Positions 28,036 through 38,348 of a stretch of 64,000 bases of DNA are shown one piece after another (position 1 is the stretch's first letter; each line of letters opens with the position of its first letter). The notes below the pieces were generated by a model. That model searched no databases. It was given only the letters and a program-made list of their open reading frames with translations, and was not told the origin of the DNA. Made by a program: the position numbers and the translations under genes. The stretch comes from Oceanimonas pelagia (GTDB lineage: Bacteria; Pseudomonadota; Gammaproteobacteria; Enterobacterales; Aeromonadaceae), in contig NZ_CP118224.1 in the NCBI RefSeq assembly GCF_030849025.1, forward strand, positions 3,055,001 through 3,119,000, in the 5' to 3' direction.

Positions 28036-29169
28036 CTATTGTTCCTGTCTGGCCTGGTGAATATCTTTTGGCTGCACCAGGTCGCCGGTGTCGTTGCCCC
28101 AGGCATTGCGCTCGTAGGTGATCACCGCCGCCAGCTCCTTCAGCGCCAGTTGCTTGTCAAAGCTCTGCATGGCGGTACCCGCCTTGCCATACAGCACTAT
28201 GTTGATGTGAGCGGCCCGGTCGTTCAGCACCAGCTCGCTGCTCCTGAGCGCCGGAAAGGCGCCGGGAATGCCTTCGCCATTGGCCTGATGACAGGCGGCA
28301 CAGGCCTTCTGATAGACCTGCTCACCCAGCGTCATCAGCTCGTCCCTGCTCATGTTCATGGCCAGCAGTTCCTGCTCGGCGGCCCTGGCCTCGGCCTGCT
28401 CGGTTTTGCGCCGGGCCAGCCAGCCATCAAATTCCTCGGGAGAGCGGGCATCCACGACGATGGGCATAAAGCCGTGATCCTTGCCGCACAGCTCGGCGCA
28501 CTGGCCACGATACAGGCCCGGCTGCTCGATGCGGGTCCAGGCCTCGTTGATAAAACCGGGAATGGCATCCTTTTTCACCGCGAAAGCCGGCACCCACCAG
28601 GAGTGGATCACATCGTCGGAGGTGATCAGAAAGCGCACCTTGCGCTCCGTGGGCAGCACCAGGGGATGATCCACCTCCAGCAGGTAGTGCTCCCGCTTGC
28701 GCACCTCACCGCTGATCTGTTGCGGCAGGGTAGCCAGCAGGCTGTAAAACTCCACGTCTTCGTCAAAGTAACGGTAATGCCACTTCCACTGAGAGCCGGT
28801 GATCTGCACGGTGAGATCCGGCTTTGAAGCGTCTTCCATCGCCACCAGGGTTTTGGTGGCGGGAATGGCCATGGCCACCAGAATGAGAAAGGGAATGATG
28901 GTCCAGAGGATCTCGACCCTGGTGCTTTCGTGAAACTGGGCTGCCCGGGCGCCTCTGGACTTGCGATGGTGAATAATGGCCCAGAACATGGCCCCGAACA
29001 CCAGCAGACCGATGACCGCGCAGATGGTGAGAATGGTCATGTGCAGGCCATACACTTTCTGGCTGATTTCGGTGACCCCTTCGGTCATGTTGAGGCGGAC
29101 CTGGGCCTCGGCGGGCAGGGTTGCCAGCAAGGACAACAGCAGCAAAATCGGCTTCACGCGCACCCCCAT
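28036..29169 (-). CDS. ctaC: Cytochrome c oxidase subunit II with fused cytochrome c domain
   Basis: A 377-aa protein: signal peptide (VKPILLLLSLLATLPAEA), two membrane helices, the cupredoxin CuA domain (GQCAELCGKDHGFMPIVV, with the two Cys, His and Met ligands) and a C-terminal cytochrome c domain (ACAACHQANGEGIPGAFPAL). The fused haem domain makes this a caa3-type enzyme. ATG 29169 follows AGGA by 7 bases. It is the first gene of the cluster; its promoter must lie within about 130 bases, between the start and the heptamer array. Confidence 0.95.
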   Translation of the reverse strand: MGVRVKPILLLLSLLATLPAEAQVRLNMTEGVTEISQKVYGLHMTILTICAVIGLLVFGAMFWAIIHHRKSRGARAAQFHESTRVEILWTIIPFLILVAMAIPATKTLVAMEDASKPDLTVQITGSQWKWHYRYFDEDVEFYSLLATLPQQISGEVRKREHYLLEVDHPLVLPTERKVRFLITSDDVIHSWWVPAFAVKKDAIPGFINEAWTRIEQPGLYRGQCAELCGKDHGFMPIVVDARSPEEFDGWLARRKTEQAEARAAEQELLAMNMSRDELMTLGEQVYQKACAACHQANGEGIPGAFPALRSSELVLNDRAAHINIVLYGKAGTAMQSFDKQLALKELAAVITYERNAWGNDTGDLVQPKDIHQARQEQ

Positions 29170-29297
29170 CGTTTCATCCTGTAACACCGGAGCACTTGAA
29201 TTCGGCATTGGTGGCCGCCGAACGACCGCATCCCTTCCATTCGGCTGACTCTAAGTAAAGCAGCAGTTAAGGAAATGTAAAATATAAAGAAATGGGA
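29170..29297 (-). other. Upstream region of the cox cluster
   Basis: About 130 bases between the cox2 start and the heptamer array; it presumably holds the cox promoter. On the minus strand it becomes AT-rich near 29270-29290, but no confident hexamer pair was picked. Confidence 0.4.
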
Positions 29298-29443
29298 GAT
29301 TGGGGATTGGGGATTGGGGATTGGGGATTGGGGATTGGGGATTGGGGATTGGGGATTGGGGATTGGGGATTGGGGATTGGGGATTGGGGATTGGGGATTG
29401 GGGATTGGGGATTGGGGATTGGGGATTGGGGATTGGGGATTGG
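29298..29443. repeat. Heptanucleotide tandem array (TGGGGAT)n, about 21 copies
   Basis: An uninterrupted run of the 7-base unit GATTGGG (equivalently TGGGGAT) over 146 bases, with one degenerate copy at the left edge (GGGAGAT). Every unit has four consecutive G on the plus strand, a G-quadruplex-capable pattern. It lies between the lexA hairpin and the cox2 upstream region. No protein is likely; the IPNPQSP-type translation is a by-product. Confidence 0.97.
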
Positions 29444-29470
29444 CAGGCCACCATAAGTTTGCGGCCTGCC
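29442..29470 (-). terminator. Hairpin after lexA, touching the heptamer array
   Basis: GGCAGGCC (29442-29449) and GGCCTGCC (29463-29470) form a perfect 8-bp stem with a 13-base loop, 16 bases after the lexA stop. There is no T run on the minus strand, which continues into AATCCCC repeats, so termination may be Rho-dependent or weak. Confidence 0.55.
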
Positions 29471-29486
29471 GGGTCAAGCGGGTTTG

Positions 29487-30101
29487 TCAGAAGTCGCCGT
29501 TGCGGATCACCCCCACCGCCAGACCTTCGATAATCAGCTCCTGGGTACGCAAGTCCACCTCAATGGGCGACAGCTCCTCGTTTTCGGGCACCAGGCTGAC
29601 CTTGCTGCCCTTGCGCTGAAAGCGCTTCACCGTGACTTCGTCGTCGAGCCGGGCCACCACCACCTGGCCATTGCGGGCCTCCCGGGTCTTGTGCACCGCC
29701 AGCAGATCACCGTCCATGATGCCGATATTCTTCATGCTCGTGCCCCGAACCCGCAGCAAAAAGTCCGCCGAGGGATGGAACAGGGCGGGATCGAGCCGGT
29801 AATGACTCTCGATGTGCTGTTGCGCCAGTATGGGTTCACCGGCGGCCACCCGGCCCACCAGCGGCAGGCCCTGTTCTTCTTCCGCCTCTTCCCCGGCCAG
29901 GCGAATGCCCCGGGAAGTACCGGGCATGATTTCAATCACGCCCTTTTTGGCCAGCGCCTTGAGGTGCTCTTCCGCCGCATTGGCGGACTTGAACCCCAGC
30001 ACCCGGGCAATTTCCACCCGGGTGGGCGGCATGCCGGTTTGCTGAATGTGTTCCTTGATAATGTCCAGCACCTGCGACTGGCGGGGAGTAAGGGCTTTCA
30101 T
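29487..30101 (-). CDS. lexA: SOS-response repressor LexA
   Basis: A 204-aa repressor with an N-terminal winged helix-turn-helix ([36 protein letters not shown]) and a C-terminal self-cleaving peptidase. The cleavage site is Ala87-Gly88 in GRVAAGEP; the catalytic dyad is Ser122 (RGTSMKNIG) and Lys159 (EVTVKRF). Two SOS boxes upstream give autoregulation. ATG 30101 has AGG 7 bases upstream. dinF, its usual neighbour, is found 8.4 kb away beyond the cox cluster. Confidence 0.97.
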
Positions 30102-38284: not shown

Positions 38285-38348
38285 GGGACTGGGGACTGGG
38301 GACTGGGGACTGGGGACTGGGGACTGGGGACTGGGGACTGGGGACTGG
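38285..38348. repeat. Heptanucleotide tandem array (TGGGGAC)n, about 9 copies
   Basis: Uninterrupted 7-base unit GGGACTG over 64 bases, differing from the 29298 array by C for T at one position. Four-G runs every 7 bases on the plus strand. It lies 103 bases upstream of livK and 28 bases beyond the tdh hairpin, mirroring the lexA-cox2 layout. Confidence 0.97.

Follow-up and report, generated by a model that had tools for sequence, protein, structure and literature searches.

Tandem heptanucleotide repeats are represented in cyanobacteria by the STRR sequences, with CCCCAGT and CCCCAAT units that complement those found in Oceanimonas. The closest described systems are the G-rich (GGGANTN)n heptamer repeats of Xanthomonas and the GGGGA(C/T)T repeats of Nostoc sp. 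PCC 7120 (Rehm 2015, PMC4692102), reported in a study that also cites an account of heptanucleotide repeats in Calothrix. According to that study, such repeats are mainly intergenic, comprise 2 to 26 units, with four units being preferred, and differ in length between relatives. They form convergent inverted pairs in Xanthomonas and few pairs in Nostoc, lie in proximity to stop codons, are few between divergent ORFs and show no preference for the leading or lagging strand. The study also reports that (GGGGATT)4 and (GGGGATT)3GGGG fold as quadruplexes in K+, as shown by CD, with the latter presenting a melting point above 95 C, that phase variation was judged unlikely for the heptamer family, and that function was left open (Rehm 2015, PMC4692102). 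Intergenic heptamer arrays are also formed by the TAACTGA direct repeats of Beggiatoaceae, which are patchily spread over distant phyla (MacGregor 2015, PMC4679880). A literature search found no study on the function of GGGGATT-type heptamer repeats later than that of Rehm (2015), the only publication in which the GGGGATT heptamer was found, and none joining Oceanimonas with a tandem repeat.

Examination of the window, i.e., the whole 64,000-nucleotide stretch of Oceanimonas pelagia DNA analyzed, revealed a G-rich heptamer array in the gap between lexA and cox2 (Table 1). The homogeneous array of about 21 TGGGGAT copies that a sequence-only reading had placed at 29298-29443 is real, these coordinates being those of the perfect period-7 tract (146 bp; 20.9 copies), in which 20 exact TGGGGAT units stand in an unbroken row (29301-29440). 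The first unit of the array is degenerate (TGGGAGA). Read as (GGGGATT)n, (TGGGGAT)21 is a tandem of at least two units of the GGGANTN or GGGGA(C/T)T type. The array is G-rich on the plus strand, where its 151 bp contain 86 G, 43 T, 22 A and no C, and appears as C-rich (CCCCAAT)n on the strand that is sense for lexA and cox. Its G4Hunter score is 2.21, as compared to a window mean of -0.06 (sd 0.21). A three-unit pattern searched for with up to three mismatches gave 25 matches in the window, 19 in the lexA-cox array and 6 in a second array at 38285, and a maximum of 0 matches in 100 dinucleotide shuffles of the window; the lexA-cox array is far above chance expectation. Placed on the non-coding strand, it is separated from the lexA stop by 44 nt and from the called cox2 start by 133 nt, and no inverted partner array, i.e., no G-arm, accompanies it. 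A search for known RNA families in 28900-29700 gave no match at E values of up to 1. The array is open in one plus-strand and one minus-strand frame (GIGDWGL and NPQSPIP repeats), such that an encoded peptide was considered and rejected; these open frames were judged accidental, since a period of seven has few stops.

Table 1. Features of the window and lexA-cox arrays of Oceanimonas genomes, with G000 being the genome analyzed.
Feature	Positions	Strand	Copies	Unit	Remarks
G-rich heptamer array (TGGGGAT)21.4	29293..29443	+	21.4	TGGGGAT	TRF: period 7, 99% matches
lexA, 204 aa	29487..30101	-			Gene upstream of array; array at its 3' end
lexA 3' stem-loop GGCAGGCC...GGCCTGCC	29442..29470	-			3' arm directly joins array, no U-tract between
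Conserved cox upstream segment TTTACA...CTTTACTTA	29252..29281	-			Putative -35/-10, by eye
cox2, first gene of cytochrome oxidase operon	28036..29169	-			Start codon uncertain
Second window array (GGGACTG)9.1	38285..38348	+	9.1	GGGACTG	TRF; antisense between two minus-strand genes
lexA-cox array, G000			20.9	GGGGATT	
lexA-cox array, G009			11.1	GGGGATT	
lexA-cox array, G013			6.3	GGGGATT	
lexA-cox array, G002			8.4	GGGGACT	
lexA-cox array, G007			4.4	GGGGACT	
lexA-cox array, G003			3.7	Mostly GGGGACT	Perfect copies inside five mixed units
lexA-cox array, G001			11.0	GGGAAGC	
lexA-cox array, G018			16.7	GGGAAGC	
lexA-cox array, G020			17.1	GGGAAGC	
lexA-cox array, G016			9.5	GGGAAC	Hexamer

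Along the minus strand, the lexA stop is followed by the stem-loop, (CCCCAAT)n, a T-rich stretch, the conserved segment and cox2 (so named after the label of the earlier reader and the look of the protein), confirming the placement of the array between the hairpin behind lexA and the region upstream of cox2. The array ends approximately 11 nt upstream of the putative cox -35, as judged by eye; a consensus promoter scan did not list the TTTACA...CTTTACTTA segment. The lexA hairpin is followed by the tail AATCCCCA, with a single T in 8 positions, and so differs from an intrinsic terminator, namely, a hairpin with a U-tract; a scan of 29100-29520 found no terminator-like site. The T-rich stretch beyond the array could still play the part of a U-tract or of an upstream element of a promoter.

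The orthologous gap was next compared across the genus, with one genome per species being considered, such that differences in copy number are those between species. G009 is identical to Oceanimonas sp. CHS3-5 over 2,668 bases (L108 against L053), and the window shares 90% identity with that record over 6.6 kb, consistent with its assignment to Oceanimonas. Of the 23 congeneric genomes, counting the one analyzed, 22 gave a LexA match, with none being found in G008; the CTTTACTTA motif appears no more than 900 nt downstream of lexA in 19 of these 22 loci. Ten of these 19 loci contain a pure array, one contains a degenerate remnant (G004) and eight contain neither; in six of the latter, the cox2 start itself is visible, while for G019 and G021, only the cox motif falls within the stretch examined. 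The unit at this site turns over as a block between species, as listed in Table 1, and the appearance in G016 (locus L066) of a hexamer where relatives have heptamers means that the period itself can change. The instability anticipated for so pure an array was thus borne out between species, with 0 to approximately 21 copies and block changes of unit being seen at one orthologous site.

Against this turnover, the flanks of the array are conserved. The distance from the lexA stop to the array start is 35-45 nt in nine of the ten array-bearing species and 56 nt for the perfect tract of G003, while that from the array end to CTTTACTTA is 31-37 nt in nine of the ten and 49 nt in G016, even as array length ranges from 26 to 146 bp. 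Because the array-to-motif distance is nearly constant whatever the length of the array, length leaves the cox upstream layout unaltered. As such, the proposal that the array sets the distance of the cox promoter found no support, given that the array lies outside the conserved segment. In G001, G016, G018 and G020, the first array units constitute the 3' arm of the predicted hairpin. At the 12 congeneric loci lacking a pure array, the tail of the best hairpin contains 3-6 T in 8 positions in ten cases, as compared to 1-2 T in 8 at those seven array loci where the correct hairpin was picked (the script picked another in G009, G018 and G020), a contrast that is partly built in, since the array stands where the tail would be. 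Two loci, those of G022 (2 T) and G010 (0 T), have neither an array nor a T-rich tail. At eight lexA loci from other genera of the family, tails contain 1-4 T, with at least 3 T in four of the eight. These tail counts are to be read in light of the script reporting a hairpin in all 30 loci and having been run without a control.

Several gaps also contain, next to an array or instead of one, a larger repeat that is dispersed, includes CGGCAATCCCCACTG or CATTTCA/CATTTTATGGTCGG-like stretches and has, by eye, a MITE-like look, as at approximately 328450 and 362950 in G000 and in the lexA-cox gap of G019 (L062), as well as on the far side of lexA in G009 (L053).

The lexA-cox array is not the single local array upstream of the cox operon that it had been taken for, and instead belongs to a genome- and genus-wide family. 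The suggested genome search for other arrays was fruitful: the fetched stretches of G000 contain 73 arrays of two or more GGGANNN units, at least 56 of them with three or more. A pattern search of the same genome gave 56 matches with at least three G-tracts, as compared to 29 for the backward control, and missed some arrays, the lexA-cox array included; backward controls are non-zero because GGGATTA arrays match in both directions. In G000, array numbers drop sharply past four units (24 arrays with four, 4 with five). Many arrays are mosaics and others are long and pure, with a maximum of 23 units, the commonest units being GGGACTG, GGGATTA, GGGATTG, GGGAATG, GGGACTA, GGGAATA and GGGAGCA. Judged by eye, the second window array is separated from the stop of its upstream gene by a hairpin. 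When arrays were assigned to the leading or lagging strand, with dnaA at 3.25 Mb and the terminus assumed to lie opposite, no replication-strand bias was detected (25 leading, 31 lagging; p 0.50).

Placement relative to genes was addressed for arrays of at least three units, using the 56 arrays from the fetched stretches of G000, together with 67 from sampled stretches of G003 (10 of 75 listed places having been left out, by hand count), and gene edges computed with a self-trained gene model. None of the 123 arrays lies inside a called gene. Of 121 placed arrays (two of the 67 from G003 have no neighbor on one side and are omitted), 68 are flanked by convergent genes, 23 by tandem genes for which the G-rich strand is sense, 29, including the lexA-cox array, by tandem genes for which it is antisense, and a single one by divergent genes. 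When the 5' neighbor of an array is a sense gene, the array starts -8 to +16 nt from the stop of that gene in 80 of 91 cases, with a median offset of 5 nt in the convergent class and 7 nt in the tandem-sense class. An offset of -8 was seen in 10 cases, in which the called frame ends at a TAG from the first array unit. At L046 (G000 2973732), L041 (G000 2406655), L260 and L275 (G003), the TAG that ends the upstream gene apparently comes from the array itself, with two such array-supplied stops being common to G000 and G003 orthologues.

The arms of the family are strictly ordered. Of the 122 arrays counted (out of 123), 76 have a C-rich arm of two or more units no farther than 200 nt downstream of the G-arm, as compared to two with such an arm upstream, and the inverted pairs of G000 comprise 24 convergent and one divergent pair. 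Paired arms fold into stable hairpins, with z below -2 in 28 of the 29 pairs for which both arms comprise 2-6 units (60 shuffles each). In the 26 of these considered for arm co-evolution, arms matched their own partner no better than those of other loci (mean percentile 0.447), and therefore the stem derives from the shared unit rather than from co-evolution. The 8 nt following C-arms contained at least 4 T in 21 of the 47 convergent cases and in 7 of the 19 tandem ones, as compared to 13% of background 8-mers, weakly supporting a terminator role. Behind an RNase R-like gene, 12 of 15 species showed, by eye, hairpins with G- and C-rich arms, and the remaining three an ordinary hairpin and a T-run. 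At another convergent gap, a G/C-arm pair in G000 (L039; 2343903-2343950) corresponds to a nearly empty gap in G009 (L095), a candidate empty site.

To determine how widely the family is distributed, the motif GGGANTRGGGANTRGGG was sought in other genomes. It was found in 20 of 22 congeneric genomes (being missing from G011 and G022), in two of 52 from other genera of Aeromonadaceae and in none of 74 from other families of the order, with the backward control not being clean, i.e., also non-zero in the genus. In G006, matches to the backward control (51 and 53) outnumber those to the motif (17 and 21), and this genome must therefore contain many arrays of another unit, recognized by the control pattern alone. 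In database records, exact (GGGGATT)5 arrays occur in at least 120 stretches; among the matches listed (80 titles) are those from cyanobacteria, Xanthomonadales genera, Caldilineales, Anaerolineae, Pirellulales, Verrucomicrobiota and others. In a viral collection, a three-and-a-half-unit pattern was found in only eight stretches. At foreign loci, chosen for containing (GGGGATT)5, with arrays less than 700 nt from the locus end excluded and genes called as longest ORFs, the C-arm lies downstream of the G-arm in 62 of 144 cases and upstream in none. Arrays fall inside an ORF in 18 of 81 cases with a GC content below 0.5, in 29 of 56 at 0.6 or more and in two of seven between these values. Divergent gaps contain 8 of 62 arrays in the AT-rich set and 10 of 27 in the GC-rich set, and the distance to the sense stop is no more than 20 nt in 24 of 34 and 5 of 12 cases, respectively. 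Given the GC-rich counts, the 3'-end rule is not confirmed in that set, with stop-codon anchoring being clear only in the AT-rich one.

It is reasonable to assume, with somewhat more confidence than doubt, that the array is a satellite that grew by slippage at the hairpin closing lexA and is largely passive, affecting at most the end of lexA transcription. This reading starts from the identity of the unit with that of the known family, the position of the array at the hairpin arm, the turnover of copies and units, and the near-constant distance to the cox motif; slippage as the mechanism is what we infer from this pattern, as is near-neutrality for cox. Accordingly worded, one member of a dispersed GGGANTN-type family, found mostly at gene 3' ends, would have been seeded by the 3' arm of the lexA hairpin and have grown by replication slippage outward into the spacer that precedes the cox promoter. 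Slippage would keep the interior pure and leave edge units degenerate, and, following contraction, one variant unit could replace all others. Growth would be bounded by two functional edges, the lexA hairpin and the cox promoter, such that the length of the spacer between the operons would change and the cox upstream layout would not. For the heptamer family as a whole, the recurrence of the unit in unrelated phyla and the strict arm order exceed what neutral slippage would give, so that selection or a biased process is likely.

Were the array to have an effect, the end of lexA transcription is the likeliest candidate, ahead of cox. C-rich, G-free RNA is the kind of sequence on which Rho loads. 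The lexA-sense RNA of the array would offer approximately 150 nt of such sequence where a U-tract would stand, and Rho could load there; the composition fits a C-rich, G-poor Rho site, with Rho action here being putative. A barrier between the two operons, as had been proposed, is possible and would then belong to the lexA transcript end, since the array sits on the hairpin arm. In its stronger form, we hold this to be a minority possibility: hairpin and C-rich array would together constitute a Rho-dependent or combined terminator, shielding the cox operon from SOS-induced transcription of lexA. The direct junction of hairpin and array, the near avoidance of divergent gaps (1 of 121), the stable folding of arm pairs and the T enrichment past C-arms all speak for a terminator, whereas copy numbers of approximately 4 to 21 and the decay in G004 hint at weak constraint, a pure array is missing from 8 of 19 cox-motif loci, and the lexA-cox array has no G-arm with which to pair. 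Broader still is the idea of an element class shared across phyla at gene 3' ends, in which hairpins would be made of, and renewed by, G4-prone heptamers, and a C-rich arm, the lexA array being an example, could replace the U-tract and end transcription via Rho. The C-arm being only downstream in foreign loci and the G-strand typically starting within approximately 20 nt of the stop in Oceanimonas and in the AT-rich foreign set point to such a class, which is nonetheless unlikely.

Control of cox via its promoter is unsupported. Quadruplex folding of the array DNA, a potential originally ascribed to it, is plausible, since CD has revealed folding of the same oligonucleotide in K+ (Rehm 2015, PMC4692102), and the G4Hunter score points the same way. 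That a quadruplex or length-dependent topology upstream of the cox promoter tunes cox2, with slippage as the switch, is, however, improbable, despite the closeness of the array to the putative -35. The array-to-motif distance is independent of array length, the pure array is missing from 8 of 19 motif loci, like arrays occupy dozens of other gaps and phase variation was judged unlikely for the family (Rehm 2015, PMC4692102). Least credible of all, and very improbable, is a mobile MITE- or REP-like hairpin element, with heptad arms inserted just behind stops and copied by some enzyme, although the strict arm order, the orthologous gap filled in G000 and near-empty in G009, and an abundance restricted to the genus within the order would suit such an element. 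Reverse transcriptase (PF00078) and Y1 transposase (PF01797) matches were found in 13 and 18 of 23 genus genomes, respectively; G009 has no match to either and yet presents 62 motif matches, such that both enzymes were rejected as drivers of the arrays. REP/BIME elements with RAYT combine a conserved palindrome with an associated Y1 (RAYT) transposase. The Oceanimonas arrays have no strongly conserved ends, with conservation outside the units being limited to the surroundings of the stop codon and a loosely defined ...A(C/A/T)TGG end, and occur in G009 in the absence of a Y1_Tnp match, and so do not belong with such elements. Arms no better matched to each other than to those of other loci and the scarcity of the pattern in the viral collection likewise speak against mobility.

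With one site presenting 0 to approximately 21 copies, four units and conserved flanks, the genus offers a natural experiment, and the Oceanimonas site could serve to separate slippage, terminator replacement and promoter control. The lexA-cox array is a member, in another genus, of the already described GGGANTN-type heptamer repeats. Like the STRR sequences, the hosts of which are cyanobacteria, it is a tandem heptanucleotide repeat. To what is known of the family are added a finer anchoring to stop codons (median 5-7 nt), stop codons apparently supplied by arrays, block turnover of the unit between conserved flanks at a single orthologous position, and an array emerging from a hairpin arm. 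The TAACTGA repeats are likewise intergenic heptamer arrays with patchy spread, with a unit that differs and is not G-rich (MacGregor 2015, PMC4679880). The Oceanimonas arrays resemble the Xanthomonas and Nostoc repeats in their units, convergent pairing and stop-codon proximity and share with them the preference for four units and the lack of preference for the leading or lagging strand; they differ in belonging to another gammaproteobacterial genus and in that pairs, few in Nostoc, are common in Oceanimonas (Rehm 2015, PMC4692102).
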